This document shows, one piece after another, positions 15,137-36,003 of a DNA stretch of 38,737 nt (within the stretch, counting starts at the first letter, position 1; every line of letters begins with the position of its first letter). A program made the position numbers and the translations under genes. This DNA comes from a virus. Location: positions 1 to 38,737 of the IMG/VR virus record IMGVR_UViG_3300035666_000067; one strand, given 5' to 3'. Under the pieces are notes generated by a model. The model searched no databases, was not told the origin of the DNA, and saw only the letters and a list, made by a program, of their open reading frames with translations.

Positions 15137-16002
15137 TGCCCTTGGAAACCGCCACCTACATCAACAGCCTGGTCGTCACCAACCCGGACGGGGCGGCCGA
15201 TGCGCGCTCCACCCTGGACGACCACATCCGCCTTATCAAGGCCGCGCTTCGCCGGACGTTCCCGAACGTGACTGGCGAAGTGAGCGCGAGCAACAACGTG
15301 TTTGCGCTGCTCGCGACGACCAACCAGAACATCCAGGACCAGTTCACCAACCTGCGCGATGGCACAACCACGGCGCGCTTCGCGCTCTTGGCAAACTTCG
15401 CCGGCTTCGCCACGGAGGCCAACAGCGCGGGCTTCGCCACCGTCGCGCTCGAGGCCCCCACGCAGTTTCCCGTCTACTACTCCACGCTCACGGCCGAGGC
15501 GACCAGCCTAAGCGCCAGCGTCAATACCAGCCCGGACAACTTCGTCGCGCCGCGCGTGAGCCTGAGCCGCAGCGGCCTGTTCGCCATTCGGGGCGCCATC
15601 CGCTGCCAGGTAGTGCAGGGCGTCAGCAGCGCGTCCGTGCGGCTCGCCATCGGCCTCTCGGCCACCGGCGCCGGCAGCGGCACGTTCCTCCGCTACACCG
15701 ACGGGTCCCCGTCGGGCCTGCTTGCCAGCATCACCTACAGCACCGCCGCGCTGGCCGCGTTCGTGTTCAAGGGCACGACCTCGCCGTCCGTTACCCCGGG
15801 CTTCGTCGGGCCGGCTGCCGGCACCTATGAGCTCATGGTCCACCTGGACGGAATCCTCAACGTCACCGCGTCGGCCCTGGCGGTGCTTTCGACCGTCGTA
15901 GACTGGCTCCCGCCCGCCGGCGGCGCGCAGACTCTCCTGGTCCAGAAGGGCAGCACGCTCATCGCCGAGCGGATCGGCGACTCCATCGCCGGAGGCCTGT
16001 GA
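15136..16002 (+). CDS. Tail fibre/appendage protein, copy 2
   Basis: A 288-residue paralog of the upstream fibre protein. It starts MPLETATYINSL, with DDHIRLIKAALRRTFPN and QFTNLRDGTTTARF, then Ala/Phe/Asn repeats (ANFAGFATEANSAGFATVALEA) and a beta-rich C-terminal domain unlike that of copy 1 except for the repeated pattern SLSRSGLFAIRG against VSQSGLYTFRG. The ATG overlaps the upstream TAA (TAATG at 15134-15138). Two fibres with the same attachment end but different tips would broaden or switch the receptor range; this is inference. Confidence 0.8.
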   Translation: MPLETATYINSLVVTNPDGAADARSTLDDHIRLIKAALRRTFPNVTGEVSASNNVFALLATTNQNIQDQFTNLRDGTTTARFALLANFAGFATEANSAGFATVALEAPTQFPVYYSTLTAEATSLSASVNTSPDNFVAPRVSLSRSGLFAIRGAIRCQVVQGVSSASVRLAIGLSATGAGSGTFLRYTDGSPSGLLASITYSTAALAAFVFKGTTSPSVTPGFVGPAAGTYELMVHLDGILNVTASALAVLSTVVDWLPPAGGAQTLLVQKGSTLIAERIGDSIAGGL

Positions 16003-16005
16003 CCC

Positions 16006-17556
16006 ATGGCAATCGCTCGCGTCGCCGGTGAAGTAGCGGGCGGCCTGCGGCCCGACGTGCCGGGCCTCATCCTGCCGGAGGGCATTTGGACCGACGCGCG
16101 TAACGTCCGCTTCCGGGACGGCAGCGTGGAGAAAGTGCGCGGCTACGAGCGGGCGCTCGGCAGCCTCTCGGCCACAAGCATCTACGGCACCAACATCAAC
16201 GACGGCGCCACGGCTTACTGGCTCTATGCCGGGCAGACTGTGGTGTACGCCACCGACGGCACGACCCACGCCAACGTCACCAACCTAAGCGGCACGCCGA
16301 ACGCCAGCCTGGAACTGGGGTTTACCGGCGGCAACTTCCACGGTTTCGCCATCCTGAATGACGGCGTAGGCGTGCCCCAGGTGTGGGACCCTGGGCTTGC
16401 CAACCGCTGCGTCAGCCTGACCGCGTGGCCGGCCAACGTCACCGCCCAGGTGCTCCGCCCGTTCCGTGACCAGCTGATTGCGCTTCGCATCACGGACACC
16501 GGCGACTACAACCCGCGCGAGCTCCGCTGGAGCACGCTGGCCGGCCCGGGCGCGCTGCCCGACGACTGGGACTACACCGACCCGTCGAACCAGGCGGGCC
16601 GCACGGAGCTCGGCGACACCGATGACAACCTGGTGGACTGCCTGGGCCTCCGCAACAGCCTCATCGTCTACAAGCAGTTCAACACCTACATCGCCGACCT
16701 GGTCGATGACGATGCCGTGTTCTCGTTCCGGCGCCTGTTCTCCCAGTCTGGCCTGCTCTCGGAGAATTGCGCGGTAGCATTCGGCGCGCGGCATTTCGTG
16801 GTCACCGACTGCGACATCATCGTCCACGACGGCAACAGTCCGGTCAGCATCGCGGACCAGCGCATGCGCCGCTGGTTCTTCACCCGCCTCAACGCCAACG
16901 CTTACCGCCGCACGTTCGTCATGGCCGACTACCGCAACCGGGAAATCTACGTCTGTTTCCCCGAGAGCGGCCAGGTGTGGCCCACCATGGCAATCGTCTG
17001 GAATTGGTCCGACGATTCCTGGCACATCCGCGAGCTCGGCCGCGCCATGGCATTCGGCACCAACGGCATCGTGCCTGGAACCAGCGCGCTCATTGACGCC
17101 GACACCCGGACCTACGACGACGCGGGCGAGCCGTTCGATGACGAGTCCTACAACCCGTCGGCGCTGCGCGCCATGCTGTTCGCTGCCGAGCGTTTCGATG
17201 CGTACCAGCTGGACACCGGCGAAACCTACGCCGGTGACACGATGACGTGCTACGCGGAGCGCACCGGGATCGGGCTGTCCAACATCGACCTAGTCCGCAT
17301 CAAGCGCATCAAGCGCATCATGCCCCGCGTCCTCGGCACGACCGGCGACACGATCCGCTTCTACGTCGGCGTGCGCTCCGCCATCGACGGCACGGTCAGC
17401 TATCTGGGGCCGTACCTGTTCACCATCGGCCAGGACCACAAGATCGACCTCCGCATTAGCGGGCGGATCATCGACTTGAAAGCCGAATACCTGGGCACCA
17501 GCACTTTCCGCCTGTTCGGCTGGGACATTGAGTACGAGCCGGACGGCTACCGATGA
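16006..17556 (+). CDS. Tail hub/packaged-DNA stabilisation protein (P22 gp10-like)
   Basis: A 516-residue beta-rich protein. The start VAGEVAGGLRPDVPGLILPEGIWTDARNVRFRDGSVEKVRGYERAL is typical of phage tail-nozzle proteins that follow the adaptor. Repeated blades (WLYAGQTVVYAT; FHGFAILNDGVGVPQVW; LRPFRDQLIALRI; LGLRNSLIVYKQFNTYIADL; FGARHFVVTDCDIIVHDG; WNWSDDSWHIRELG) suggest a beta-propeller. The C-terminal strand ends LFGWDIEYEPDGYR, again common in this family. It closes the tail channel after packaging and receives the fibres. Partners: adaptor and small tail protein. Confidence 0.85.
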   Translation: MAIARVAGEVAGGLRPDVPGLILPEGIWTDARNVRFRDGSVEKVRGYERALGSLSATSIYGTNINDGATAYWLYAGQTVVYATDGTTHANVTNLSGTPNASLELGFTGGNFHGFAILNDGVGVPQVWDPGLANRCVSLTAWPANVTAQVLRPFRDQLIALRITDTGDYNPRELRWSTLAGPGALPDDWDYTDPSNQAGRTELGDTDDNLVDCLGLRNSLIVYKQFNTYIADLVDDDAVFSFRRLFSQSGLLSENCAVAFGARHFVVTDCDIIVHDGNSPVSIADQRMRRWFFTRLNANAYRRTFVMADYRNREIYVCFPESGQVWPTMAIVWNWSDDSWHIRELGRAMAFGTNGIVPGTSALIDADTRTYDDAGEPFDDESYNPSALRAMLFAAERFDAYQLDTGETYAGDTMTCYAERTGIGLSNIDLVRIKRIKRIMPRVLGTTGDTIRFYVGVRSAIDGTVSYLGPYLFTIGQDHKIDLRISGRIIDLKAEYLGTSTFRLFGWDIEYEPDGYR

Positions 17557-18373: not shown

Positions 18374-18725
18374 CGCGCCCCTCCCTGCCAACTTCCTCGG
18401 CGCGATGCCGGCCGGCTTCGGCGGCCTGGTCCAGCAGTCGGTGGACCAGCAGCAGCCGTTCTCCGGCGGCGACCTCATGGCCCTCATGCAGGGCCAGCTG
18501 GCGAGCCCGGGCTACGGGCTCTACGGCCCCACCCGCTTCCCCGGCGGCGCCGCACCGACGCCGCCAACTGCGCCCCCCGCGGTCGGCGGCGGGGGCGGCC
18601 TCCTGTCCATGCTGCCTGGGCTTTTTAACCGCGTGTACGGTCGCGCCCGCGCGATGCAGTCGCCGGCGTACCAGCAGTCGCCGGCGTACCAGAATCATCT
18701 CATGGGGCCGGGGCTCTTCCTGTGA
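18231..18725 (+). CDS. Gly/Pro/Met-rich presumed internal virion protein
   Basis: A 164-residue protein starting MPFKTLREYMDRNMRTPP, rich in Gly, Pro, Ala and Met, with a hydrophobic GGGGGLLSMLPGLFNRVYGRA (about 120-140) and a tandem QSPAYQ repeat near the end. No known domain. It starts within the GNAT-like gene (143-bp overlap) and is coupled to the following gene by GTGA. Composition and place before the giant protein fit small podovirus ejection proteins that line the capsid or form a channel; inference only. Confidence 0.6.
   Translation: MPFKTLREYMDRNMRTPPGGNTQNPALQMALTSRATMGAPSYAARPGSAPLPANFLGAMPAGFGGLVQQSVDQQQPFSGGDLMALMQGQLASPGYGLYGPTRFPGGAAPTPPTAPPAVGGGGGLLSMLPGLFNRVYGRARAMQSPAYQQSPAYQNHLMGPGLFL
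18657..18692 (+). repeat. 18-bp perfect tandem duplication
   Basis: CAGTCGCCGGCGTACCAG occurs twice in direct succession (18657-18674 and 18675-18692). It is in frame and duplicates QSPAYQ in the virion protein, so the copy number can change without breaking the gene. Confidence 0.9.
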
Positions 18726-19813
18726 GCAAAGGCGGCGGCGGCGGCGGCACGACCACCACGTCCCCGTGGGGGCCGGCCCAGCCGTACATCAAGGAAGGCC
18801 TGCGAGGCCTCCAGGCGGCGTACCGGAACCCGGCGCAGTTCTTCCCCGGCCAGACGTTCGTGGGCCCGACGCCGTCGGAGCTCGCGGCCTGGGGCAACCG
18901 GCTGTCCTACTCGGACCAGGTGTACGGCGGCTCGCAGGCGCCGAAGTTTGGTGAGGCAACGGGCGCTCTGTCCGGCGCGCTCACCGGCAACACCGCGCTC
19001 GGTTCCCTGGCCGGCAACCTGGCCCCGTTCGCCGGCAACGCGCTCATGGGCGGCTGGTCCGGCTTCGGCCAGGCCGGCGGCCTTGATGCCCGCGGCGCCA
19101 TCGGCAACATGCTGTCCGGGCAGCCGGACTACTCCGGCCTCCAGGGCGCCATCGACGCGGCCAATGCGCCGATCCTGCGGCAGCTGAACCAGGACATTCT
19201 CCCGGGCCTTGAGCGGCGCGCGTCGTTCCTCCAGAACCCCACCGGCAGCATCAAGGCGCTCAACCGCGTCATGCCGGAAATCGGCGAGCGGATGAGCCAG
19301 AACGCGCAGGCGCTCTACCAGGGCGAGCGCAACCGGGCGCTGGGCGAGCGGGCCCAGGCGGCCAACTTGGTCAGCCAGGGCGGGCTGTCCATGAATCAGG
19401 GGCTCATCGGGCTGGGCGGGCTGGCCGGCAACCTCGGCGCCGGGGCCAGCGGCGACGCGCTCCGCGGCCTGGCGCTGTTCCCCGGCATGGTCCAGGCGGG
19501 CGAGGGGCCCGGCAACCTGGCCCAGCAGTTCGCCGGCTGGGGCCGCGGCTTCCAGGAGCAGGCGCTCGCCGACCAGATGGCGCGCTTCAACTTCTACCAG
19601 AACCAGCCGATGGACTGGGCCAGCCGCTACCTGGCGATGGGCCAGGGCGCCGGCGGCCTCGGCGGGACGCAGGCGCAGAAGAACCCCGACGGCTCGCCGA
19701 TTGCCGGGGCCCTGGGCGGCGCCATCACCGGCGCGCAGCTGGGCACGATGATCCCCGGCATTGGCCCCGCCGTCGGCGCCATCGGCGGCGGCCTCCTCGG
19801 CCTGTTCGGGTGA
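18722..19813 (+). CDS. Gly-rich presumed internal virion/ejection protein
   Basis: A 363-residue protein beginning SKGGGGGGTTTTSPWGPAQPYIKEGLRGLQAAYRNPAQFFPGQ, a form widespread as the start of phage internal virion proteins. The centre is helical and Gly/Ala/Asn-rich with ILRQLNQDILPGLERRASF and MPEIGERMSQNAQALYQGERN. The C-terminus AGALGGAITGAQLGTMIPGIGPAVGAIGGGLLGLFG (split at about 330-363) is a glycine-zipper-like hydrophobic segment that could insert into membranes during ejection. GTG 18722 overlaps the preceding stop as GTGA. Confidence 0.7.
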   Translation: MSKGGGGGGTTTTSPWGPAQPYIKEGLRGLQAAYRNPAQFFPGQTFVGPTPSELAAWGNRLSYSDQVYGGSQAPKFGEATGALSGALTGNTALGSLAGNLAPFAGNALMGGWSGFGQAGGLDARGAIGNMLSGQPDYSGLQGAIDAANAPILRQLNQDILPGLERRASFLQNPTGSIKALNRVMPEIGERMSQNAQALYQGERNRALGERAQAANLVSQGGLSMNQGLIGLGGLAGNLGAGASGDALRGLALFPGMVQAGEGPGNLAQQFAGWGRGFQEQALADQMARFNFYQNQPMDWASRYLAMGQGAGGLGGTQAQKNPDGSPIAGALGGAITGAQLGTMIPGIGPAVGAIGGGLLGLFG

Positions 19814-20633: not shown

Positions 20634-23600
20634 GTGGCCGCACCTTCGTTTGACGAATGGGCGGCCTACGCGAAGTCCGCGGTGCCCGATGCCACGGATG
20701 ACCGCATCCGGGCCGAATACCAGCGCCGCTACAACGCCACGCCGGTCCGCACCCAGGGCCCCGACCGCGACACCTGGCGGTCGTGGGCGCGCCAGAATGC
20801 GCCGGACGTTACCGACGACGCCATCGACGCGGAGTACGACCGCCGCTACGGCGCGCCCGCGCTGACTAGCCTCTCGCGCACGGTCAAGCGCGGCGCCGGC
20901 GGCCTCACGTCTTGGCTCGGCGACATGGGCAACGTCCTGCCGTCGCTGTTCGGCAGCCAGCCGGCCGCCGCGGCGGTCGCCGGCCTGAGCGAGGCAGGCG
21001 AGGGCTACGCGCGCCGGAACGCGATGTCGGCCGAGATGGCGAACGCGCCGTGGTACTCGCCAGAGAAGGTGCTAAACCAGACGCTTGAGGCGGGCATCGG
21101 CATGCTCCCGCAGCTGGCGTCCGGCTCGGCCCCGGTCGGCGCGACCATCGGCGCCACTCAGGAGGCCATGCCGTTCTACCGGGAGCTCCGCGAGTCGGGC
21201 GTCCCGGCCGGCGAGGCGGCGGCGCGGGCCGGCCTGTTCGGCGGCTACGTCGGGCTCACCGGCTTCCTGCCCCTCAACCGCATCTTCGGCCGGGCCCCTG
21301 GCCGCCTGGTCACCGGCGCGCTCGAGGCGACCACGGAGATTTCGGAGGGCGGCGTCCAGGCGGCGCTCACCCCCGGCAAGGGGCTGGCCGACATCGGCCC
21401 GGCGCTGCTGGCCGAGGCGGAGGGAGTCGGCGCCCCAGCGTTTCTCCTCGGCTCGCTGCTGGGCGCCACCGGCCGCGCCGGACCCCGGGGACCCGGGACC
21501 AGCGAGGACCGCGAGGAGCTCCTACGGCGCGCCAGGGAGGCCCAGGGCGAAGCCGCGGCGGCAGCCGCCCAGCCCCAGGCCCCGGCCGACATCGCTGGCG
21601 TGGGCGCTCCTGTGCAGCCGGACGGCACGATCCCGGGCCAGGCCGACCCCCGCAGCGGAGTCATCTTCCGCGGGCCGCCGCCGCCGCCGGAGCCGGCCGG
21701 CGTCACCGGCGTCCTCCAGGCCACTCCGCCCGGGACCGCGCCGCAGCGCCAGCCGGCGCCGGCCGTCCGCATCGACCCGGAGAGCGGGGTCCGGTACCCG
21801 CCGGGCTTCGACGGCGTCCTGGTCACCAACCCGAACGCGCCAGGCCTGGCCGGCGCCCCGCCGGCGGCGCCCGAGGCCGTGCCGCCCCCGCCGACGCGCC
21901 GGCCCGACGAGACGGACCCCGTCTGGCAGGCGCGCCTCAAGGCCTACGCGAAGCGGTACATCGACACCCAGCCGGCGCCGGACCCGGCGACCCTGCCGCG
22001 CCAGTCGGCCGCCTACTTCGACGCGCCGGAGGGCGCCTGGCGCGAGCCGCTGGACGCCCTGGTCACGACCAAGGGCCCGGAGGACAAGGGCGCCACGAAG
22101 GCGCTCACGCGCTTCCGCGCCGCGGCCCAGGGCATCCTGCCGAAGCGCGCCCCGGTGGACGTGGAGTTCACGGAGGACCGCAAGCTGCGGGTGCTGGACG
22201 GCAACGGCACCGTCAACGCGCTGCGGACGGTCGGCCTGGAGGACGGCGTCCCGGTGCGCGTGGCTCGCGTCGCGGTGCCTGGCGAGTTCGCGGCCGACGA
22301 GCGCCGGCTCACCGACGAGCAGCGCGCTGGCGTCGTGCGCGAGTTCCGCCGCGCCGAGCAGGACCTCCCCGTCTACGAGCAGTTCCTCAACGAGCTCACC
22401 GGCAGCCTGTTCGGCGACAACGGCCGCGTGCAAATGGGGCCCATCAAGGGCATCGGCCGCACGACGCAGAAGGTGGCGCTGGACTACAAGGGCGACGCCA
22501 GCCGGATGAAGGACGTGTTGCGCTCGACGGTCCTGGTGGAATCGCCCCAGGAGCTCGAGGCGCTGGTCGCCGGCCTGGCGCAGCAGGGCCAGGTGACGGT
22601 CCTGCCTGGCGAGCGCAACACCCTCGCGGCGAACCAGCCGGGCGAGGACGGCTACATGGACTACAAGGTGAACGTCCAGCTTCCGTCGGGCGGCACCTAC
22701 GAAATCCAGGCGATGCCCCGGGCCGCCTACGACATCAAGAACGGGATCGGCCACGACCTCCTTGAGGCGCGGCGGAAGATTGAAGCGCGGGCGGTGCGTG
22801 AGGGGCGGCTGCCGACGGAGGCGGAGGCGGCGGAAATCCGCACGCTTATGGAGCAGTCTCGGGCCGCGTATGCGCCGGGCTACAGCCGGTTCTTCGGCGC
22901 CAGCGGCACGCCGGACCGCGTCACGCTCGAAGCCGCCACCGGTCGGAACGAGCCGTCCGACTCAGCGACGACCGCGGCGACGCCATCCGGCGACACCCAG
23001 GCCCGTTCGCCCTCCCAGTCCCAGGGCCGCCAGTCGGGCCCCGGCCGGACCGAATTGCCGATTCGCTTTTCCACGGGGTCGATTGTACGCCATCAACAGG
23101 TGACTACGCCAGCGGGCCGTACCCTGCGGGTGGAGCCCCAGGTAGTCGAAGCGGATCAACTGATTACGTCAGATGCCGCCGAGTACCCGGCCGCCATGCA
23201 GCCGCGGGACCGCAGCCGCCAGGCCAGCCGGGCCCAGGTGGAGGGCATCGCCAGCAAGCTCCAGCCGGAGCTCCTGGGCCTGACCCCGTCGGCCGCCGAC
23301 GGCGCTCCGATCGTGGCCCCCACCGGCGTCGTGGAGTCCGGCAACGGCCGCGTGATGGCGCTGCGCCGGGCCATGGCCGCCTATCCCGAGCGGTACCAGG
23401 CCTACCGGGACTGGCTGGCGGGCCAGGGCTTCGACGTGGCCGGCATGCGGGCGCCGGTCCTGGTCCGGGTGCGGGCCGAGGACCTCCCGGAGTCCGAGCT
23501 CCAGCAGTTCGCGGTCGAAGCCAACCAGCGCACCAACCTGGGCATGTCGGCCACGGAGCAGGCCGCCGTGGACGCCCGCCTCCTCAACGAGCAGCTGCTC

Positions 23601-26600
23601 GGCGTGCTCGAGGACGGCGAGCTCACGGCCGCCGCCAACGCGCCGTTCGTGCGCGGCTTCTTGGGCCGGCTGCCCGCCTCCGAGCAGGCCAACCTCATCG
23701 GCGCGGACGGCCGCATCGCCGCCGAGGGCATCCGCCGGATGAAGGCCGCCATCATCGCCCGCGCCTACGGCGGCAGCGAGGAGGCCCAGGCCACCATCAA
23801 CCGCATGCTCGAGTCCACGGACGACGACGTGCGGAGCATCACCAACGCGCTCACGCGGGTCGCGCCGCTGTACGCCCGCCTCCGCCAGGCCATCGACGAC
23901 GGCGTGGTCCCGGCGCAGTTCGACATCGCCAGCGCCATCGCCACCGCCACGGAGAACGTGTCGAAGGTGCGCCAGGCCCGGCAGTCGCCGGCCGAGTTCC
24001 TGGCCCAGCAGGACATGTTCGCGGCCGACCAGGCGCCCATGGTCGTCTACCGGCTCATGCACTCGCCCGACCTCAAGCGGGCCGCGTCGGCCGAGCGCAT
24101 CGTGGAGGCGCTGACCCACTACGCCACCCAGGCGCTCGAGCAGCGCAGCGACCAAGGTGCCTTGTTCGGCGGCGACGAAGTGGCGCCGGCCGACATCCTG
24201 GCGCAGACGGTGGACATCTTCCACGGCGGCCACCGCTTCGGCGAGGACGCTCAGGCAGCGCGGCCGGCCGGCGCCGGCATGAGCGAGCGGGCGCTGCGGG
24301 ACATGGTCGGGACCATCACCGGCGGCTGGACCAACGGCCCCCGAATCGTCATCGCCAGCAACGCCGGCGCCCTCCCGACCCGCGTGCTGCGAAGCCTGGG
24401 CCCCGACATCGAGGGCGCCTACGAGCCCAGCACCGGCACCGTCTACATGGTCGCCAGCAACATCGGCGGCCCGTGGCGCGCCCAGGAAGTCCTGGCCCAC
24501 GAAGCCATCGGCCACTACGGCATGGAGCGGCTGTTCGGCGCCCGCTGGCCGGCGCTGCTGGCGGACGTGGCCCGGCTCGCCGAGCGGGACCCCATCGTCC
24601 GGCGCCTGTGGCGCAGCGTCGAAGCCGAATACTCGATGGACGGCCAGCCGCCGTCGCCGCGGGTCATGGCGGCCGAGACGATTGCCCGCCTGGCCGAGCT
24701 CTCGCCGAAGCACCCGCTGACCGCCAAGGTGCTGACCTGGTTCCGCGAGGCGCTGCGGCGCCTGGGCTTCCGCATCAACCTCTCGCGCACGGACCTGGTC
24801 GGCTACCTGCACCAGGCCGCCCGCGGCCTGAGCGGCGAGGCCTCGGCGACGACGAGCTCCGGCGAGTTCGTCTCCTTCGCCGCCCGCCCGCCAGACGACG
24901 TGAGCTTCTACGGGATGGACAGCGCCGGCCTGGAGCGCGAGCTCGAGCTCGCCCGCGCCGAGCGCGACGCCGCCAAGGCTGCCGGTGACCAGCGCGGGGC
25001 TCGCGCCTGGCAGGACCGGGCCCGCGCCATCGCCAACTTCCGCGGCAAACTGCGGTCCGCAGCTGACCGTCGCAGCGAGCAGCGCGAGCGCGATGTCCAG
25101 CGCCGGGCCGAGGCGGAAGCCGCCGCCGCCGCCCAGCGCGCCCAGCTGGACAACCTGGGCCGCCCGCTGCCGCCGGCGATGCAGGGGGTGGACCTGTTCG
25201 CCCAGGGCGCCGGCGCGCAGACGGGCCCGACCATCGAGCAGCAGGCCCAGGCCACGGAGGCGGCCGGCTTCAACCTCGAGCCGATGGAGGGCCCGCCGCG
25301 GCAGTCGCAGCGCGACCTGTTCGCCGCCCGCCGGCGCGTGGCCGCCGGCGACATCGGCGCGCCCGGCGCCACCATGGACCTGTTCGCCGCGCCGACCCTG
25401 CCAGCGCCCGCCATCCGGTCGCTGTTCGTGGACCAGGCCGCCGGCAAGTCCACGCTCCGGCCGACCGGCGTTTTCCGGCACGGCCTCGAGACGGTGAAGG
25501 ATTCCCTGGACGCGGCGCGCTTGGTCGCCTCGCTCCGCAAGAGCGCGGTCGAACAGATGCTTGCCGTGGTGGTCGATTCGACCAAGCGGCCCATCGCCGT
25601 GCTCCGCAACAGCATCGGGGCCATCGACCAGGCGGGCGTCTACTTCGCGGAAATGGCGAAGTCTCTGGCGCTCATCCCGGGCGCCGCGGGCTTCCACATG
25701 GTCCACAACCACCCGAGCGGCGACGCGAAGCCGAGCGACGCGGACCGCCTCGTCACGCGCCGCATGAACAACGTGTTCGCCGGCACTTCGACGCCGCTGC
25801 TGGGCTCGTCGGTCGTCACGCCCAAGGACATCGGCGTCATCGCGGTCGGCCAATCCTCGTCGCGCTATGCCGACCTGGAGGCCTACGTCGAACCAGACGC
25901 CATGACGCCGCAGCGGCGCAAGCGCGAGACGCCGCTGCTGGAGCGCACGCAGCAGCGGCTCAATTCCAAGCCGCGATGGTCGGTCATCAGCCCGGACAGC
26001 GCGAAGTGGCTGGCCGACATGTGGAAAGACGCCGTGAGCCAGGACGAGGTCGGGCTCATGCTGTTCGACAATCGCCACCGGCTGCTGGCGGTTACCGCGA
26101 TCCCGCGACGCCATGCCGCGTCGGTCAAGAACCCGATCCCTGACAGCGGCGCCGCCGTGGTCATGCGCGCGGTGGCCGAGCGCAACGCCGCCGCCGTCAT
26201 CCCGTTCGGCACCAACGAGGACGCCGTCACGAACGTCGCGGGTTTCCTGTCCGCGGCCGACGTGCGGGCCATCGACGGCCTGGTCACCGACGGCCCGAGC
26301 GGCACGACGACCTCGCTCATGACGACGACGCGCTGGCCGCCGGAGGCCTACGCCGCCCGCGCCTGGCACGGCAGCCCCTACCGCTTCACGAAGTTCGACC
26401 TGACAAAGATCGGCAGCGGCGAGGGCAACCAGGCCTACGGCTGGGGCCTGTATTTCTCGCGGGTGCGCGGGGTCGCGGAGAGCTACCGGGACAGTCTCTC
26501 CAAGATGATCGCCGGCCATTTCGTGAAGGACGGCAAGCGGGTCACGAAGCGCGATATTTGGAAGATGCAGTCCACCGCGCCGAACGAGCTCCGCGACTTC

Positions 26601-29600
26601 CTGGGGCGGCCCGAAATCGCCAAGGCGCTCGAGAACGGCAACCGCGACAAGTTCCTCGCCCTGGTCGATGCGGAAGCCACCGGCCAGCAGAAGCAGGCCA
26701 GTCGGTTCCGCGAGCGCGCCGAGGATTCGCGCAACCGGCCGCCGCTGGCTGCGACCTACACGCCCGAGGACTACGACCGCATGGCCGCGTGGGCCCAGGC
26801 CCGCGCCGATGCCGCGCTCCAGTTCAAGGCGCAGCTGCAATACAGGGTCGCCGAGTCCTCGGGCGCGCTGTACGAAGTGGACATCCCGGACAGCGCCATC
26901 GAGGCGATGCTGGACTGGGAGGCGCCGCTGGCCCAGCAAACCGACGCCGTCAAGAACGTCGCCCGCGAGCTCCTGAAAAGCACGGGGTACCTGCGGCCCG
27001 ACGAGAACGGCCCGCGCCAGCTGCTTGCGGCCTGGCGCTCCTACGCGATGGAGCGGGGCGGGATGGCCGACGGGGACCGCGGCTCCACGCTCTACCTGGC
27101 GCTCATGCGGCAGATGGCGCCGGCCGAACCGCCGTCGCCGGACGGGGTGCCCCGCGGATGGGGCGCCGCCTACCGCGGCGACGAGGGCGCGCCAGTCGCC
27201 AGCAAGCACCTGGCCTCGCTCGGCATCCCCGGCATTCGCTACCGCGGCGGCAGTTCGGGCGCTGGCAACGTCGTCGTGTTCGATGAGGCGCTGGTCACCA
27301 TCCGCGCCATCAACGGCGAGCCGCCGGTCACCGGCCCCGACCGCGAGGAGCTCCTCGCCAGCGTGAGCCCGCCGGCCGCGGCCCGCCGCCGCTCCGTCAC
27401 GTCCACACCCGCGTTCCGCGAATGGTTCGGGACCAGCAAGGTAGTCGATGCCGACGGTGAGCCGGCCGTCGTGTATCACGGCACGGCGCGCCCGGACCGC
27501 GTCGGCACCCGGTTCCGCAAGGACCGCGCCACCGCCGGCCCGATGTCCTACTTCACCGACGAGCCGACCGTCGCCAGCAACTACGCCATTGGCAAGGAGG
27601 ACACCAGCCTCGCCGACACGGCCAACTACGGCGAATGGTTCAAGGTGAAGCTCAAGGGCACGCGCACGCCGCGGCCTCTGCCGGCGCTGTGGTGGGACCT
27701 CACGCCGGAGCAGCGCGCCACCGTCATCGACCGCATGCCGCGGATCGGGTACCAGGACCCCGACAACGGCACCGGCCCCATCGTCCTGCACGACGATGAC
27801 AACGGCATCGCCTCGCGCGACCACTACGAATGGACCCTCCGCGAAAAGCGCGGCAACGCGCTCGATGCGCTGGTGGACGTGTGGCTCGACTCCGGCGCGA
27901 TGTTCGGCGAGGAGGAGAAGTTCCTGGACGTGCTCAAGGCGGCCGGCATCGACACCGGCCGCGTCAACTACGAGCACCCGAACGCCAGCTATTCCGCCGT
28001 CTACCCCGTGTTCCTGCGGATCACCAAGCCCTTCGACACCCGGGACGATGCGGCGCGCCCGGAGATTCGCCGGGCGCTTGAGGATGCCGCCCGCCGCAAG
28101 CGGGCGCCGCGCGATGCTGGGATGTACCCCTGGGACAAGCGCAACGTGGGGCCGGCCGAATGGCTCGATAAGCTCAATGCCGACATGCGCGACGGCACGA
28201 CCTATGCCTGGACGGTCGTGCCGGACTGGGTCACCGACACGCTCAAGCGCCTGGGCTTCGACGGCATCAAGGACACCGGCGGCAAGAACGGCGGGCCCGG
28301 TCACGTCGTCTGGATTCCCTTCGAGGAGAACCAGGTAAAGAGCGCGACCGGCAACCGCGGCACGTTCCGCAGCGACTCCAACGACATCCTGGCGTCCCGC
28401 CCGCGTCAGACGCCGCGGCCAATCACCGGCCCCGACGGCAGGCCGCTGGTCATGTACCACGGCAGCCCGCAGGAGTTTGAGTCCTTCAAGGCTGGCCGGG
28501 TCGATAGCATTTTCTTCACCCCGGACCGCGAGTACGCGCGCAGCTACGGTCGCAACGTGAAGCGCGTGACGCTCGCCGCGCGCAAGCTCGCCGACCTCAC
28601 CGACCCTGGCAGCGAGGCCTACGCCCTGGCGGTGCAGACGTTCAACAACAACGGCGGATGGCCGGCCGCGAACGCCGACTACTGGGAGGACGCCCGCGAC
28701 GCCGGCCGGACCAACCCGACTTTCGACCCAGCCCAGGACCTCACGTTCGAGCTCTACGACTTGCCGGACACCGGCGTCGCGGAGGCGCTGGCCGCGGCCG
28801 GCTACGACGTGACGAAGCTCCAGGAGCGCGACGGCATCGACTCCTACGCGGTGACCGACCCCGAGCTCATCACCGTGGACGGCGAGCCGCTGGCGTCCCG
28901 GATGAACCGGGAGGCGGCCGGCCCGACGGTGCAGCAGCAGCCTCTCCCGATGGGCGGCGGCGGCGACGGCCCCGGCTACCAGGGCCAGCGGCCCGAGCGC
29001 GTCCAGGCCGGCGGCGGCGACTACTCGCTGCGGCAGTACGGCTCCCTCACCGACCAGGAAGTCCGCACCCTGGCCGGCGTCATCGAGAGCATGGACGCGC
29101 CCATCGAGGCGCAGCGCCGGGGCGAGCGCGGCTGGGACGTGACGGAGCAGGCGGCGCTCAACATGGTCCGCAACCAGCTGGGCATCACGCTCGAGAGCTT
29201 GGTCGCGCGGGCGCCAGGCTCCACCGCGAACGCCGAGCAGCTGGAGGCGTATGGAATCATCGTCGCAAACGCGACGCGCCAGGTGCAGGAGCTCGCCACG
29301 CGCGCCGCCTTGACCAACAGCAACGAGGACCTCCTCGCGCTTCAGGCCGCGAAGGAGAAGCTGGGCATGCTGGTCGCGCCGGCGATGGGCTTCCGCACGG
29401 AGGCCGGCCGGGCGCTCAACATCCTCAAGAAGATTTCGGCCAGCAACCAGACGGCCGAGGGGCTGCTGGCGGAAATGGGCGACGGCTCCACCCAGGCGCT
29501 TCGCGACTTCGCCAAGCGCGTCGCCAACGCCGACAACCTGGACCAGGTGATCGGGGTCACGCGCGCCGCCTACGCGCCGACGTGGTGGGACAAGTTCTAC

Positions 29601-31238
29601 GAATACTGGATCAACGGCCTCCTCTCCGGGCCGACCACGCACGCGGTCAACGTCGTCAGCAACGGCATGTATCGCGTGCTCGAGGAGTCCGCGGCCCTGG
29701 TCGGCGCGGCCACGTCGCGCGATTACTCCACGCGCCAGGTGGCGGCACGCCTAGCCGCCATCCCCCACGGGGTCATGCTCGGCCTCAAGAACGCCGGCCG
29801 CGCGTTCGTCACGGAGGAGGGCCAGCTGGACCCGGCCGACAAGATCGAGGCCGCGCGCCAGCGCGCCATCGGCGGCCTGGCCGGCAAGGTGATCCGCGTG
29901 CCGGGCCGGTTGCTCCGGTCGGAGGACGAGTTCTTCAAGGCCATCGCCTACAACGCGGAGCTCGCGGACATCGCCATGGGCGAGGCGCTGCGCGAGGCGC
30001 CCGGCGATCCGATGCCGGCTTTCCACCGGATCATGGGCGACATCATGAACCGGCCCGAGGCGGTGAAGCGGGCGCGGGACGCGGCGCGGCGCGCCACCTT
30101 CACGCAGCCCCTCGGCAACCTGGGCCAGCTGGGCACGTTCTACCTCAACAAGTCCAAGGTCGGCCGGCTCATCGTGCCCTTCGTGCGGACCCCGGCGAAC
30201 ATCCTCAAGGCCGCCATCGACTACACGCCGGCCGGCATCGCCCGCGAGGAGACGCGGAACATGCTGCGCGCTGGTGGCCGGGACGCCGCCATCGCCCGGG
30301 GCCGCATGCTCATCGGTTCGACGGTGATGGTGGCGACCGTGTCCCTGGCCGCCCAGGGCATCCTCTCGGGCGCAGGCCCAGACGACCCGGAGGAGCGGCA
30401 GCTGCTCGAGCGCACCGGCTGGCAGCCGTACAGCGTGAAGGTCGGCGGCAGCTGGGTCCGCTACAACCGCTTCGAGCCCTTGGGCATGCTCATGGGTGTG
30501 GCCGCCGACATGTACGAGCTCGGCCGCTACGTCACCGCCGGCGAGCTCGAGCGCATCCCGGCGCTGCTGATTTCGTCCCTGGCCCTCAACCTGGGCGACA
30601 AGACGTTCCTGCGCGGCGTCACCGACTTCGCCGAGGCCTACACCAACCCGGAGCGCAAGGCCGCGTCCTGGGCGCAGAACATGGCGGCCAGCGTCATCCC
30701 GGTCGCCGCCGGCCAGGTGGCCCGCGCCAGCGACCCGTACCTGCGCGAGGCCCGCACGCTCACCGACAAGGTCCGCGAGCGCATCCCCGTCGCCCGCGAG
30801 CAGCTGGCCCGCCGCGTGGACATCGCCGGCCAGCCGATGACGCAGAAGCAGGTTGGCCTGGGCATCCCCATTCAGGCGAGCGCGCAGCAGGACGACCCGC
30901 TGGCCGAGGCCATGCTCCGGCTGCACTTGCCGAAGCGGAAGCCGGACCGGCGCATCTACGGCGCCGAGCTCACCGACGGCGAGTACGAGAGCCTGGCGAC
31001 CTTCATGGGCCAGGCCCGGTGGAACGTGCTGACGCCGATGGTGTCCAGCCCGCAGTTCAAGGCGCTCATGGCGGGGAACCCGGAGGCGGCGCGTGCGATC
31101 CTAAACCGCCAGTTCGACATGGTCAGCGACCAGGCCCGCAAGGCCTGGCTCATCCGTAACCCGACGGTCCTGAGCAAGGGGCTCACGGAGCGTTCCCGCC
31201 CCCGCGCCATCGGGGTCGATTACCTGCCACAGCGGTGA
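20634..31238 (+). CDS. Giant polyvalent ejection-type protein with ART, RelA/SpoT, JAB and protease modules
   Basis: A 3534-residue protein in one uninterrupted frame, GTG 20634 directly after the previous TAA. Parts in order: two 30-residue repeats (6-35, 45-74); Gly/Ala hydrophobic stretch (about 95-290); Pro-rich linker; LDGNGTVNAL, ParB/sulfiredoxin-like (521 on); RelA/SpoT-like domain (about 600-720); DdrB-type ParB with VESGNGR (900-906); metallopeptidase HEAIGH (1289-1294); coiled coil (about 1425-1510); RadC-type JAB with HNHPSGDAKPSDAD (1691-1704) plus a degenerate relative (about 1773-1890); three ADP-ribosyltransferase-like domains with (W/Y)HG(S/T) at 1912, 2282 and 2609; LPD38-like C-terminal region (about 2980-3290) with a membrane-like helix near 3226-3245. 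Large polyvalent proteins are known from phages and conjugative elements, where they are thought to enter the cell with the DNA. No N4-type RNA polymerase motifs were seen. Confidence 0.85.
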   Translation: MAAPSFDEWAAYAKSAVPDATDDRIRAEYQRRYNATPVRTQGPDRDTWRSWARQNAPDVTDDAIDAEYDRRYGAPALTSLSRTVKRGAGGLTSWLGDMGNVLPSLFGSQPAAAAVAGLSEAGEGYARRNAMSAEMANAPWYSPEKVLNQTLEAGIGMLPQLASGSAPVGATIGATQEAMPFYRELRESGVPAGEAAARAGLFGGYVGLTGFLPLNRIFGRAPGRLVTGALEATTEISEGGVQAALTPGKGLADIGPALLAEAEGVGAPAFLLGSLLGATGRAGPRGPGTSEDREELLRRAREAQGEAAAAAAQPQAPADIAGVGAPVQPDGTIPGQADPRSGVIFRGPPPPPEPAGVTGVLQATPPGTAPQRQPAPAVRIDPESGVRYPPGFDGVLVTNPNAPGLAGAPPAAPEAVPPPPTRRPDETDPVWQARLKAYAKRYIDTQPAPDPATLPRQSAAYFDAPEGAWREPLDALVTTKGPEDKGATKALTRFRAAAQGILPKRAPVDVEFTEDRKLRVLDGNGTVNALRTVGLEDGVPVRVARVAVPGEFAADERRLTDEQRAGVVREFRRAEQDLPVYEQFLNELTGSLFGDNGRVQMGPIKGIGRTTQKVALDYKGDASRMKDVLRSTVLVESPQELEALVAGLAQQGQVTVLPGERNTLAANQPGEDGYMDYKVNVQLPSGGTYEIQAMPRAAYDIKNGIGHDLLEARRKIEARAVREGRLPTEAEAAEIRTLMEQSRAAYAPGYSRFFGASGTPDRVTLEAATGRNEPSDSATTAATPSGDTQARSPSQSQGRQSGPGRTELPIRFSTGSIVRHQQVTTPAGRTLRVEPQVVEADQLITSDAAEYPAAMQPRDRSRQASRAQVEGIASKLQPELLGLTPSAADGAPIVAPTGVVESGNGRVMALRRAMAAYPERYQAYRDWLAGQGFDVAGMRAPVLVRVRAEDLPESELQQFAVEANQRTNLGMSATEQAAVDARLLNEQLLGVLEDGELTAAANAPFVRGFLGRLPASEQANLIGADGRIAAEGIRRMKAAIIARAYGGSEEAQATINRMLESTDDDVRSITNALTRVAPLYARLRQAIDDGVVPAQFDIASAIATATENVSKVRQARQSPAEFLAQQDMFAADQAPMVVYRLMHSPDLKRAASAERIVEALTHYATQALEQRSDQGALFGGDEVAPADILAQTVDIFHGGHRFGEDAQAARPAGAGMSERALRDMVGTITGGWTNGPRIVIASNAGALPTRVLRSLGPDIEGAYEPSTGTVYMVASNIGGPWRAQEVLAHEAIGHYGMERLFGARWPALLADVARLAERDPIVRRLWRSVEAEYSMDGQPPSPRVMAAETIARLAELSPKHPLTAKVLTWFREALRRLGFRINLSRTDLVGYLHQAARGLSGEASATTSSGEFVSFAARPPDDVSFYGMDSAGLERELELARAERDAAKAAGDQRGARAWQDRARAIANFRGKLRSAADRRSEQRERDVQRRAEAEAAAAAQRAQLDNLGRPLPPAMQGVDLFAQGAGAQTGPTIEQQAQATEAAGFNLEPMEGPPRQSQRDLFAARRRVAAGDIGAPGATMDLFAAPTLPAPAIRSLFVDQAAGKSTLRPTGVFRHGLETVKDSLDAARLVASLRKSAVEQMLAVVVDSTKRPIAVLRNSIGAIDQAGVYFAEMAKSLALIPGAAGFHMVHNHPSGDAKPSDADRLVTRRMNNVFAGTSTPLLGSSVVTPKDIGVIAVGQSSSRYADLEAYVEPDAMTPQRRKRETPLLERTQQRLNSKPRWSVISPDSAKWLADMWKDAVSQDEVGLMLFDNRHRLLAVTAIPRRHAASVKNPIPDSGAAVVMRAVAERNAAAVIPFGTNEDAVTNVAGFLSAADVRAIDGLVTDGPSGTTTSLMTTTRWPPEAYAARAWHGSPYRFTKFDLTKIGSGEGNQAYGWGLYFSRVRGVAESYRDSLSKMIAGHFVKDGKRVTKRDIWKMQSTAPNELRDFLGRPEIAKALENGNRDKFLALVDAEATGQQKQASRFRERAEDSRNRPPLAATYTPEDYDRMAAWAQARADAALQFKAQLQYRVAESSGALYEVDIPDSAIEAMLDWEAPLAQQTDAVKNVARELLKSTGYLRPDENGPRQLLAAWRSYAMERGGMADGDRGSTLYLALMRQMAPAEPPSPDGVPRGWGAAYRGDEGAPVASKHLASLGIPGIRYRGGSSGAGNVVVFDEALVTIRAINGEPPVTGPDREELLASVSPPAAARRRSVTSTPAFREWFGTSKVVDADGEPAVVYHGTARPDRVGTRFRKDRATAGPMSYFTDEPTVASNYAIGKEDTSLADTANYGEWFKVKLKGTRTPRPLPALWWDLTPEQRATVIDRMPRIGYQDPDNGTGPIVLHDDDNGIASRDHYEWTLREKRGNALDALVDVWLDSGAMFGEEEKFLDVLKAAGIDTGRVNYEHPNASYSAVYPVFLRITKPFDTRDDAARPEIRRALEDAARRKRAPRDAGMYPWDKRNVGPAEWLDKLNADMRDGTTYAWTVVPDWVTDTLKRLGFDGIKDTGGKNGGPGHVVWIPFEENQVKSATGNRGTFRSDSNDILASRPRQTPRPITGPDGRPLVMYHGSPQEFESFKAGRVDSIFFTPDREYARSYGRNVKRVTLAARKLADLTDPGSEAYALAVQTFNNNGGWPAANADYWEDARDAGRTNPTFDPAQDLTFELYDLPDTGVAEALAAAGYDVTKLQERDGIDSYAVTDPELITVDGEPLASRMNREAAGPTVQQQPLPMGGGGDGPGYQGQRPERVQAGGGDYSLRQYGSLTDQEVRTLAGVIESMDAPIEAQRRGERGWDVTEQAALNMVRNQLGITLESLVARAPGSTANAEQLEAYGIIVANATRQVQELATRAALTNSNEDLLALQAAKEKLGMLVAPAMGFRTEAGRALNILKKISASNQTAEGLLAEMGDGSTQALRDFAKRVANADNLDQVIGVTRAAYAPTWWDKFYEYWINGLLSGPTTHAVNVVSNGMYRVLEESAALVGAATSRDYSTRQVAARLAAIPHGVMLGLKNAGRAFVTEEGQLDPADKIEAARQRAIGGLAGKVIRVPGRLLRSEDEFFKAIAYNAELADIAMGEALREAPGDPMPAFHRIMGDIMNRPEAVKRARDAARRATFTQPLGNLGQLGTFYLNKSKVGRLIVPFVRTPANILKAAIDYTPAGIAREETRNMLRAGGRDAAIARGRMLIGSTVMVATVSLAAQGILSGAGPDDPEERQLLERTGWQPYSVKVGGSWVRYNRFEPLGMLMGVAADMYELGRYVTAGELERIPALLISSLALNLGDKTFLRGVTDFAEAYTNPERKAASWAQNMAASVIPVAAGQVARASDPYLREARTLTDKVRERIPVAREQLARRVDIAGQPMTQKQVGLGIPIQASAQQDDPLAEAMLRLHLPKRKPDRRIYGAELTDGEYESLATFMGQARWNVLTPMVSSPQFKALMAGNPEAARAILNRQFDMVSDQARKAWLIRNPTVLSKGLTERSRPRAIGVDYLPQR

Positions 31239-31504: not shown

Positions 31505-31758
31505 TGCCAGTAATTCGTCAGCAATTCGGCGTGCCCTCGCGCACCATCACCGCCGCCACCCTGGCCGGCATGTTCGCCACGTTCCTCACGGAGCTCATCC
31601 TCCAGGCCGGCGTGGAGCTTCGGCCGACCCTGGCCCAGGCGTTCTCCGTGTTCCTTTCGGGCCTGGCCGGCTACCTGGTCAACGAGCCGAATTGGGTCCG
31701 GGTGCCGCTGTCGGAGCGGGACCCGCCTAGCGATGAGCACGAACAGGGCGGCCCGTGA
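31501..31758 (+). CDS. Holin candidate
   Basis: An 85-residue protein with two hydrophobic helices (TITAATLAGMFATFLTELIL, about 16-35; AQAFSVFLSGLAGYLV, about 46-61) separated by a short loop, and a charged C-terminal tail (SERDPPSDEHEQGG). This is the layout of a two-span holin that opens the inner membrane to the endolysin. It is flanked by the coiled-coil membrane protein and the spanin genes; GTG 31501 followed by ATG 31504 overlaps the previous stop. Assigned by topology and context. Confidence 0.65.
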   Translation: MMPVIRQQFGVPSRTITAATLAGMFATFLTELILQAGVELRPTLAQAFSVFLSGLAGYLVNEPNWVRVPLSERDPPSDEHEQGGP

Positions 31759-32246
31759 TCGAAGCAGCCGCGGTCCGGGCCCTGCTGGCCCGAATCCCTG
31801 CGGCGGCCTGGCTCGCTGTGATCGGTGCCACGGCTGCTTTCGGTGCCTGGCAGTACGTTCGCTCGTTGCAGGCCGAGCTCGCCAGCCGGGACCAGCGCCT
31901 CGAGCAGATGGCCGGGGCCCTGCGGATCATTCAGGACGCGGCGGTGGCCGCGGAGGGTGTGCTCGATGATCGCGACGCGGAGCTTGCGCGCCTGCGCCGT
32001 GCTGGCGCTGGGACTGTGCGCCGGGTGCTCTACTGCCCCGACCCTGACGTGCCCGCCGCTGCCGCCGGCGGAGCTCCTGCGGCCGGTGACGCCGGACGGC
32101 CGGGAGCGGCTGGACCGGACATTCGGGACATCGGCCCCCTCATCTACGGCCTCGCCGACGACTACGACCGGCTCGCCGTGAACCACAACGCCCTCATCGA
32201 CTACACCCGCCGGATGGACCAGGCATGCCGAAAGCCAAGCCGCTGA
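31755..32246 (+). CDS. Rz-like inner-membrane spanin
   Basis: A 163-residue protein with an N-terminal membrane anchor (AWLAVIGATAAFGAWQYV, about 18-35) followed by a long coil (RSLQAELASRDQRLEQMAGALRIIQDAA, continuing to DDRDAELARLRRAG) and an Ala/Gly/Pro-rich periplasmic stretch. This is the i-spanin plan. GTG 31755 overlaps the holin stop. Decisive support is the nested, out-of-frame Rz1 lipoprotein. The C-terminal YDRLAVNHNALIDYTRRMDQAC may contact the o-spanin. Together they disrupt the outer membrane in the last step of lysis of a Gram-negative cell. Confidence 0.85.
   Translation: MIEAAAVRALLARIPAAAWLAVIGATAAFGAWQYVRSLQAELASRDQRLEQMAGALRIIQDAAVAAEGVLDDRDAELARLRRAGAGTVRRVLYCPDPDVPAAAAGGAPAAGDAGRPGAAGPDIRDIGPLIYGLADDYDRLAVNHNALIDYTRRMDQACRKPSR
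31966..32181 (+). CDS. Rz1-like outer-membrane spanin lipoprotein, nested
   Basis: A 71-residue frame fully inside the Rz gene, starting at ATG 31966 after GGAGGG (31952-31957). It has a lipoprotein signal: basic start (MIATRSLRA), hydrophobic core AVLALGLCAG and C21 as the lipidated cysteine (LCAGC; the -3 position is Cys, slightly unusual). The mature part is Pro-rich (CPPLPPAELLRPVTPDG), as is standard for Rz1. A longer in-frame ORF from 31825 exists but would bury the signal peptide. Confidence 0.85.
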   Translation: MIATRSLRACAVLALGLCAGCSTAPTLTCPPLPPAELLRPVTPDGRERLDRTFGTSAPSSTASPTTTTGSP

Positions 32247-32617
32247 CGCTCCGCTACTTCACCCGGGCGGAGTTCCGCTGTAAGCATTGCGCCATCGAGC
32301 GGATGGACGACGAGTTCCTCCGGCTCCTGGACGAGCTCCGCCACCGCTGCGGCTTCCCGCTGCCGGTCACGTCCGGCTACCGCTGCCCGGTCCACAACCA
32401 GCGCGTGAGCTCCACCGGCCCCGACGGCCCGCACACCTGGGGCCGCGCCGCGGACCTCGGGGTGTCACGGCACCGCGCCTACGACGTGCTCCGGCACGCC
32501 CTGGCCCTGGGCTTCACCGGCATCGGCGTCCAGCAGAAAGGCCCCACCCGGTTCATCCACCTGGACACGCTCACGGAGCAGGAGGCGGCCCCGCGGCCGA
32601 CGGTATGGAGCTACTGA
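32225..32617 (+). CDS. Endolysin, M15-type peptidase
   Basis: A 130-residue single-domain zinc peptidase of the M15 (Peptidase_M15_3) type that cuts the peptide part of peptidoglycan. The start LRYFTRAEFRCKHC, with DDEFLRLLDELRHRCGFPLPVTSGYRCPVHN, is typical. Zinc ligands fit H70 and D77 (GPHTWGRAADLG) and H112 (RFIHLD). Cysteines 19, 22, 42 and 54 are present. No signal peptide, so export needs the holin. ATG 32225 overlaps the end of Rz by 22 bp. The endolysin follows the spanins here; in most phages it precedes them. Confidence 0.9.
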   Translation: MPKAKPLTLRYFTRAEFRCKHCAIERMDDEFLRLLDELRHRCGFPLPVTSGYRCPVHNQRVSSTGPDGPHTWGRAADLGVSRHRAYDVLRHALALGFTGIGVQQKGPTRFIHLDTLTEQEAAPRPTVWSY

Positions 32618-34379: not shown

Positions 34380-35123
34380 CTATGCTGCGGCCGGCGGGGA
34401 CTCGTCGCCAAGCCCGGCGTCGTTCAGCCAGGCCGCCGTGTCGGGGTCGGCGGGCGCCGGCGCCGGCTCCTGGGCGGGCGCCTCGGCTGCCTCGGCCTTG
34501 GCCCGCCGGGCGGCGAGGGCCGCCTTGGCCTCCTCCGTCCGCGAGCGCGGGGCCTGAGCCGGCTCGGCCACCGCCACGACCTCGCCCTCAAGGATGCGCG
34601 CCCCCTCGTCCGGGTCGTAGACGCCGGCGAAGCCGAACGCCACGCGCGCCGCCTGGATCATCGCCTTGTGCCGGAGCATCCGGCGCGGCCATTGCTTCCA
34701 GGGATCGGTCCCGCGCTTGCACTCCGAGAGCCACTCCCGCACCCGCGTCGCGTGCGCCCGGTCCTTCCGGTAGATGACGCACTCGCACCAGGCGCCGTCC
34801 TCGGCCTCGAGGAATTCCAGGCCGTCGAAAGCGGGGTGCTCGTTGATGATCCGCGACCAGCCGTCCACGGACAGGATCGGCACGATGCCGCCGCCCTTGT
34901 CGGGGAAGGCGTAGAGCTCGCGGGTGAACGGGTTGAGCCCGTACTGGTTCGCGGTGACGCACAGCGCGAGCAGCTGCTCGTCGGTCACCTTGGCGGCCTT
35001 GAAAGCCACCGTCTTGAGCGACTCGATGAACACCTGGGACCGCTGCGCGCCCATGCGGTTAGCGAGCGCATCCAGCGGCGACACGCGCTGCTGGCCCTGC
35101 GGGCGGATAGAAACTTCACTCAT
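34380..35123 (-). CDS. bet: Bet/RecT-type single-strand annealing protein
   Basis: A 247-residue recombination protein that anneals complementary single strands during phage recombination. Conserved blocks of the lambda-Bet type: IESLKTVAFKAAKVTDEQLLALCVTANQYGLNPFTRELYAFPDKGGGIVPILSVDGWSRIINEHPAFDG (about residues 34-102) and WKQWPRRMLRHKAMIQAARVAFGFAGVYDPDEG (about 144-176). The C-terminus is Ala/Pro/Glu-rich and ends in a short acidic tail, where such proteins often carry an SSB-like or regulatory end. ATG 35123 is preceded by AAAGGTGG; GTG 35132 is an alternative. It overlaps the exonuclease gene by 8 bp; the pair acts together. Confidence 0.92.
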   Translation of the reverse strand: MSEVSIRPQGQQRVSPLDALANRMGAQRSQVFIESLKTVAFKAAKVTDEQLLALCVTANQYGLNPFTRELYAFPDKGGGIVPILSVDGWSRIINEHPAFDGLEFLEAEDGAWCECVIYRKDRAHATRVREWLSECKRGTDPWKQWPRRMLRHKAMIQAARVAFGFAGVYDPDEGARILEGEVVAVAEPAQAPRSRTEEAKAALAARRAKAEAAEAPAQEPAPAPADPDTAAWLNDAGLGDESPPAAA

Positions 35124-36003
35124 CGCTGCCACCTTTCTTGTTGACGAAACGGATGTCCATTGCGGTGCTGGGCTCCACGACGTAGCCCTTGCGCTTCACC
35201 AGCTTGCGCCGCAGGACCTTCCCGTCGGGGAATTCCAGCGTGGCGGCTTCGCCCATGAAGTGCAGCAGGTGGGCCAGCGCGCCGTCGGCCACCTGGTCGT
35301 ATGCCTTGGCCCGCTCGCGGGCCTCGTCGTAGACCTGACGCCAGGAGCCGAGCTCGGGCGGCGCCTCAAGCGCGCGGCCGTCGGTGCCGGGGTAGGCCCG
35401 GCGCAGCGCCGCCAGCGTGCGCCGCGACTGCCAGTCCGGGTCCGGCGGCGTGCCGTCCAGGACCCGCTGCCAGAAGGCGGCTTCCGCCTCGGCAATCTGC
35501 TGTTGGAGCTCCGCGTCCGCCGCAATGGTGTAGACGCGGAAATCGCTGTTGCCGATGAGCACGGCCAGGTCCGCCACCGGCAGCCCGGTCACGGCCATGT
35601 TGTGCTGCACCTGAATCAGGTAGGGCAGCGGCACCTGGTCGGTGCCAGGCTCGCCCCACTCCGGGCCGCCCATGCGGGCAATCTTCCCCTCGTACAGCCG
35701 GCCGCAGGCGGTGATGCCGTCCGGCGTACAGAGCATCCAGGGGCGGTCCGGCTCCGGGTGCCGCAGCGTCTCGTTCTTCGCCGTCACGGCGCGGCCAGTC
35801 TCGCGGGCGTACTCGTCGCGCACGACCGGCTCGAGCAGCTGGCCCCAGCGGAGCCAGGGCGCATCGCTCTCCTCCGCCAGCGGCGCCCGCTTGACGTGGT
35901 AGAGCTCAAAGGCGGTCATCCAGGGCGAGAGCCCCAGGGCCGCCGCCGCCTCGCTGCCACCGATGCCCCGGTGGCGCAGTTCGCGCTGTTCAATGCTTAG
36001 CAT
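35116..36003 (-). CDS. YqaJ-type phage exonuclease
   Basis: A 295-residue nuclease of the YqaJ viral recombinase family, the exonuclease partner of Bet. Visible motifs: RHRGIGGSEAAAALGLSPW (about 10-28), RWGQLLEPVVRDEYARETG, MLCTPDGI (catalytic Asp), RLYEGKIARM (E-x-K) and YLIQVQHNMAVTGLPVADLAVLIG (Q-x-x-H-N helix). A coiled region follows (AELQQQIAEAEAAFWQRVL). ATG 36003 (MLSIEQ) follows AAGGAGGAGGAC, the strongest ribosome site in the minus-strand block; the longer frame to 36045 is unlikely. It overlaps the upstream gene by 14 bp. Confidence 0.93.
   Translation of the reverse strand: MLSIEQRELRHRGIGGSEAAAALGLSPWMTAFELYHVKRAPLAEESDAPWLRWGQLLEPVVRDEYARETGRAVTAKNETLRHPEPDRPWMLCTPDGITACGRLYEGKIARMGGPEWGEPGTDQVPLPYLIQVQHNMAVTGLPVADLAVLIGNSDFRVYTIAADAELQQQIAEAEAAFWQRVLDGTPPDPDWQSRRTLAALRRAYPGTDGRALEAPPELGSWRQVYDEARERAKAYDQVADGALAHLLHFMGEAATLEFPDGKVLRRKLVKRKGYVVEPSTAMDIRFVNKKGGSDE

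Follow-up and report, generated by a model that had tools for sequence, protein, structure and literature searches.

At a probability of roughly 0.7, judged from its sequence and genomic setting, we consider the giant gene at positions 20634 to 31238 (+ strand) of the window to encode an oversized podovirus ejection protein of the gp16 or internal virion protein D type, which would carry swappable enzyme cargo and would be packaged and ejected. The window is the whole stretch of DNA that was analysed, a 38,737-base IMG/VR virus record with a GC content of about 71%. The gene opens with GTG and runs for 3534 aa without an internal stop.

At this GC content, an open frame alone is weak evidence of a gene, because chance frames are long: a 2157-aa frame, for example, lies antisense to the giant gene (23169-29642, − strand). 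That frame is spurious, an artefact of GC-rich third codon positions, and not a gene. The 10.6-kb ORF, by contrast, is real. In 20 mononucleotide shuffles of the window the longest ORF reached at most 617 codons, versus the 3534 observed; the GC content by codon position (0.71/0.52/0.94) is as in a coding frame; and homologues were found along the frame, at 31–56% identity. Another contig (L002) carries a 100% identical copy, and three further relatives encode homologous giant proteins, hereafter L003 (2376 aa), L004, and L007 (1623 aa). The GTG at 20634 aligns with the ATG start of L003, which supports the start; the TAA of the upstream gene directly precedes it, and a GGGAG lies a few bases 5′. 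The sequence-only reading of this DNA had proposed a single 3534-residue frame, and its coordinates proved exact. A PADLOC search returned no match.

The C-terminal anchor and its place in the genome

The last ~740 aa of the protein (aa 2793-3534, 29010..31235, + strand), here termed the anchor, have their homologue in the C-terminal region of internal virion protein D. With tblastn, the anchor matched autographivirus internal virion proteins down to 2e-40; phmmer recovered Desulfovibrio phage ProddE (1e-55), Pelagibacter phage HTVC011P (2e-38), and Synechococcus phage Syn5 (gp45; 1e-32); and hhalign matched HTVC011P and Prochlorococcus phage P-SSP7 gp16, each at a probability of 99.9. Homologues also occur in Roseobacter phages, and phrog_6651, annotated "internal virion protein," matches the anchor at 2e-43. 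This homology is confined to the anchor: what is shared with the internal virion protein D of ProddE, HTVC011P, Syn5, and P-SSP7 is a C-terminal region of ~500–700 aa and a comparable gene position. Those proteins are 1,121–1,415 aa long, and the two that were scanned contain no Pfam cargo domain, unlike the 3534-aa window protein.

No Pfam family matched the last ~740 aa, and a PDB profile search with the anchor likewise returned no match. Its structure model is poor (pLDDT 49.5), and the matches of that model in a viral structure library, with a query TM of 0.31 or less, were not counted as evidence of fold. A hydrophobic segment is present at aa 3226-3244. The earlier suggestion of an LPD38-like C-terminus was rejected: PF18857 matched neither the window nor its relatives, and true LPD38 loci could not be aligned with the anchor (hhalign probability 0.1, versus 99.6–99.9 for positive controls).

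The likeness to T7 gp16, the inner-membrane protein of the ejectosome, is one of late-operon position and presumed ejection. Homology between T7 gp16 and the anchor was undetectable by hhalign (probability < 1 with five gp16s and up to 26 anchors), and no lytic transglycosylase domain was found in the window protein; the term "gp16-like" therefore derives from gene position and from proteins that were themselves assigned "by synteny and size." Proteins of the gp16 type are known to be very divergent, ranging from 609 to 1,337 aa (Swanson et al., PMC8954989).

The giant gene is the last of a TerL–portal–capsid–adaptor–tail block, which is syntenic in the L003 and L004 records, and is followed by a spanin-like gene (31755-32246, a weak match) and an endolysin gene (32225-32617). 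It is thus encoded among late, virion structural genes, as polyvalent proteins are. Its position among presumed ejection proteins, as proposed from the sequence alone, agrees both with its place as the last structural gene and with the homology of the anchor to internal virion protein D. Homologues of internal virion protein D follow gp14/gp15-type genes and precede a tail-fibre gene; in the window, the neighbours are conserved and are not recognisable as gp14/gp15. The 363-aa upstream neighbour (18722..19813, + strand) has counterparts at the corresponding position in the L003 and L004 records (49% and 43% identity, respectively) and is a probable ejection or structural partner. A virion structural protein (16006..17556, + strand; phrog_3287, 3.9e-114) is also conserved in both records. 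Two adjoining genes at 14324-16002 have in common an N-terminal tail-protein module of ~70 aa, which occurs twice in the L004 record too; they are probably duplicated tail-fibre or receptor-binding genes. Near the right end of the window lies a RecE-like recombination exonuclease gene (35116-36045, − strand; phrog_434, 9e-70). Four phages, the isolates RHph_Y1_10, Mae-JY35, and KLEP18-1 and the metagenomic ctDrO704, have a portal of the same family and no anchor, and encode unrelated proteins of 632–876 aa at the ejection position; the giant form therefore appears to replace, or to add to, an ordinary ejection protein.

Enzyme modules of the window protein

The chain combines at least two disparate activities, as is characteristic of polyvalent proteins: ddrB-ParB, RadC, and ADP-ribosyltransferase (ART) domains are recognised by Pfam, and synthetase and peptidase domains by further comparison. 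Its earlier designation as a polyvalent protein is consistent with this set.

A RelA/SpoT-type (p)ppNpp synthetase domain occupies aa ~575-760 (22356..22913, + strand). Its nearest solved relative, by profile and by fold, is Tas1 (PDB 6ox6), the type VI effector (p)ppApp synthetase of Pseudomonas aeruginosa. The profile search with aa 575-760 recovered Tas1 at 5e-7, with RelA proteins next, and a fold search with the AlphaFold model (pLDDT ~80 at the synthetase) ranked 6ox6 first, at a probability of 1.00, ahead of small alarmone synthetases and Rel/RelA. Residues K605, R609, K613, D627, Y674, E690, and Q692 are present, and the alignment with L003 keeps the donor Lys/Arg together with D627 (metal Asp), Y674 (acceptor Tyr), and E690, these roles being assigned by comparison with FaRel2 (PMC11782079). 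Both the fold and the donor and acceptor residues are those of RelA/SpoT-type (p)ppNpp synthetases, in agreement with the RelA/SpoT-like module named in the sequence-only reading. Identity with Tas1 is ~25%, and delivery, if any, would be by the virion and not by a secretion system. A plasmid search with this module gave one match, which was without annotation.

Upstream of it, a possible ParB/Srx-like unit (aa ~470-545, 22041..22268, + strand) was recognised by eye from a DGNGT at 522-526. This stretch is conserved with L003 and falls within a low-confidence part of the structure model; its motif lacks the Arg. The assignment of this stretch as a ParB/Srx-like module, made on the motif, is weak.

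The identification of a DdrB-type ParB domain was upheld by Pfam (aa 828-947, 2.5e-31), with SGNGR at aa 902-906. Together with a DdrB-homologous extension that reaches aa ~1204, it spans 23085..24245 (+ strand), and this part is 32% identical to phage P1 DdrB over 374 aa. It is followed by a metallopeptidase of the polyvalent type (aa ~1218-1400, 24285..24833, + strand). A peptidase module had been predicted here with an HExxH motif; the module is present, but the motif is HEAIGH (1289-1294), which corresponds to the HEXXXH form reported by Iyer et al. (PMC5512222); together with the downstream E1348 it has the pattern of zincin MPTases. The three motif residues (H1289, E1290, and H1294) are conserved in 20 of 22 rows of the alignment, and E1348 in 19 of 20. 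The structure model exceeds a pLDDT of 90 at the peptidase, and comparison of the region with PDB zincins gave no significant match. A query comprising the DdrB and peptidase parts matched 59 phage loci, mostly within the peptidase.

The predicted JAB module corresponds to a RadC/JAB domain at aa 1626-1729 (25509..25820, + strand; Pfam 7e-16) with a complete JAMM motif of the form HxHx7SxxD (HNHPSGDAKPSDAD at 1691). A degenerate second JAB-like stretch without the HxH was noted by eye 3′ of RadC (25926-26275, aa ~1765-1880), and a comparable stretch was seen, again by eye, in L004. The three ART-like modules proposed previously are likewise recovered: ART-PolyVal matches at 2.6e-34, in four stretches, and three units can be delimited, all on the + strand. 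Unit 1 (26358..27308) has, by motif, the full H-Y-D set (H1912, Y1940, and D2217 in an FDE) and a homologue in L004. In unit 2 (27465..28358) the third residue appears by eye to be Glu (H-Y-E), and in unit 3 (28434..28883), the best Pfam stretch, the strand-2 Tyr is, by eye, replaced by Phe (H-F-D). Comparison of the ART units with PDB gave nothing useful.

Exchange of cargo between a constant cap and anchor

The N-terminal cap (aa 1-290, 20634..21503, + strand) consists of two ~38-aa repeats (FDEW..A......I..EY.RRYG) followed by a hydrophobic, Ala- and Gly-rich stretch. It is common to L003 and L004, by alignment, and to L007 (hhalign probability 99.3); it was sought, and not found, in other anchor proteins. 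The window, L003, and L004 records belong to one lineage, with common TerL, portal, capsid, adaptor, and structural genes, and their giant proteins have the order cap, cargo, anchor. The link of L007 to this lineage consists only of the cap and the anchor; the other genes of its record gave no match. In all three relatives, cap and anchor are kept and the middle differs from that of the window. Whereas the window protein carries synthetase, DdrB, peptidase, RadC, and three ARTs, L003 has the synthetase, DdrB, and peptidase only; L004 has a GP88-like segment, RadC, and an ART; and L007 has a peptidase (HEAVGH) and an ART. The cysteine-rich GP88-like segment of L004 (aa ~600-700, L004:1800-2100) is a weak Pfam match (0.0017) and is absent from the window. 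The 36.4-kb contig that holds L004 and L107 (IMGVR_UViG_3300043177_000240) looks permuted: the giant gene crosses its ends, leaving the N-terminal cap at the opposite end, and the start of L004 is found again within a proline-rich repeat, ~124 bases short of the other end of the contig.

The anchor also terminates proteins of 2,100–4,900 aa with other polyvalent cargo, in other phages and in prophages. This cargo comprises LPD1, MuF-C, and LPD5 in L009; inorganic pyrophosphatase, LPD5, and LPD1 in L011 and L013; LPD1 and an ART in L012; a helicase in L008; and LPD14 in L014, a shorter anchor protein from a Victivallaceae MAG. Within the phylum of that MAG, anchor matches were found in 10 of 289 genomes, in frames of up to 4910 aa; two of these matches are weak (1e-5 and 7e-5). 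The five anchor proteins scanned carry methylase–helicase or LPD1/3/5 cargo. Three proteins of 4,003–4,910 aa (L110, L111, and L112) resemble DarB, with helicase domains (and, in L111 and L112, also a methylase), and have the same anchor end. It is possible, at slightly less than even odds in our estimation, that the C-terminal ~740 aa constitute a portable ejection tail, a delivery domain common to ordinary internal virion protein D and giant polyvalent proteins, on which several unrelated phage lineages hang interchangeable cargo, here including a Tas1-like alarmone synthetase delivered by the virion.

Proposed delivery to the host and relation to known polyvalent proteins

In the mechanism that we propose, the anchor, probably together with the cap, would be built into the virion and would exit at the cell surface. 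The intervening ~2,500 aa would be cargo, entering the host with the genome or just ahead of it; the peptidase would perhaps cut the cargo modules apart; and these, if enzymatically active, may begin immediately to modify nucleotides and proteins of the host. For P-SSP7, cryo-ET data fit a release of its core proteins into the envelope (PMC5345008). For T7 gp16, the N-terminus is left in the periplasm and the C-terminus in the cytoplasm (PMC8954989). If this topology is valid here, the N-terminal ATP- or NAD-dependent cargo would be misplaced on the periplasmic side of the membrane unless the chain crosses or is cut; the whole chain may cross, the peptidase may free the cargo, or the topology may be unlike that of T7.

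Other roles can be imagined for such a protein. It is conceivable, though unlikely, that it is a late product that is not packaged, its enzymes acting in the producing cell at the lysis phase with the anchor as an inner-membrane tether. Both the hydrophobic segment of the anchor and the adjacency of the lysis genes would suit this role; however, the anchor is homologous to annotated internal virion proteins, the gene lies within the structural block, and P1 DdrB, the homologue of the DdrB part, is packaged into the head (PMC5512222). P1 DdrB is also cleaved before packaging (PMC5512222), which, with the link of RadC to DNA repair, could indicate that the cargo (DdrB-ParB, RadC, and a maturation peptidase) serves mainly phage DNA or virion assembly, host takeover being incidental. 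We regard this as less likely still: no role in assembly is known for either the ADP-ribosyltransferase or the alarmone-synthetase modules, and cargo is freely exchanged among relatives while cap and anchor remain constant. Least probable, to the point of being remote, is a mosaic relic whose cap, peptidase, and anchor alone are of importance, several cargo domains being in decay. The missing Tyr of ART unit 3, the missing Arg of the ParB/Srx-like motif, and the degenerate JAB-like stretch seen after RadC would be expected of such decay, but the frame remains open over 3534 codons, and the catalytic residues of the synthetase, peptidase, RadC, and ART unit 1 are kept at 31–38% identity.

A comparable protein is the virion RNA polymerase of phage N4, a giant single chain of ~3,500 aa that a podovirus packages and ejects. 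It carries an MPTase domain (PMC5512222); the modules of the window protein differ, and no polymerase domain was found in it. Polyvalent proteins are a known class for which late-gene location and injection have been described and predicted, respectively (Iyer et al., 2017; PMC5512222), and members such as P1 DdrB and DarB resemble the window protein as multi-enzyme chains, the class including DdrB-ParB, ART-PolyVal, HEXXXH peptidase, and RelA/SpoT domains. In that account, conjugative elements are the sole source given for RadC in polyvalent proteins, and RelA/SpoT acquisitions are described in (pro)phages of spirochaetes and epsilonproteobacteria; the window protein differs in uniting RadC and RelA/SpoT in one phage protein. 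It differs also in its ejection-protein tail, as neither gp16 nor internal virion protein is mentioned there (PMC5512222). The class and its likely injection are thus already known. In a literature search that reached few subscription journals, no work connected polyvalent proteins with internal virion proteins, or with ejection and podoviruses, and none described the link to an ejection-protein tail.

The shared tail of internal virion protein D type suggests how multi-enzyme polyvalent proteins reach the host. Such a delivery tail offers a concrete, testable route, as well as a handle for finding these proteins independently of their cargo. A further implication is that ejection proteins, commonly viewed as conduit parts of 600–1,340 aa, may bear thousands of residues of host-directed enzymes.
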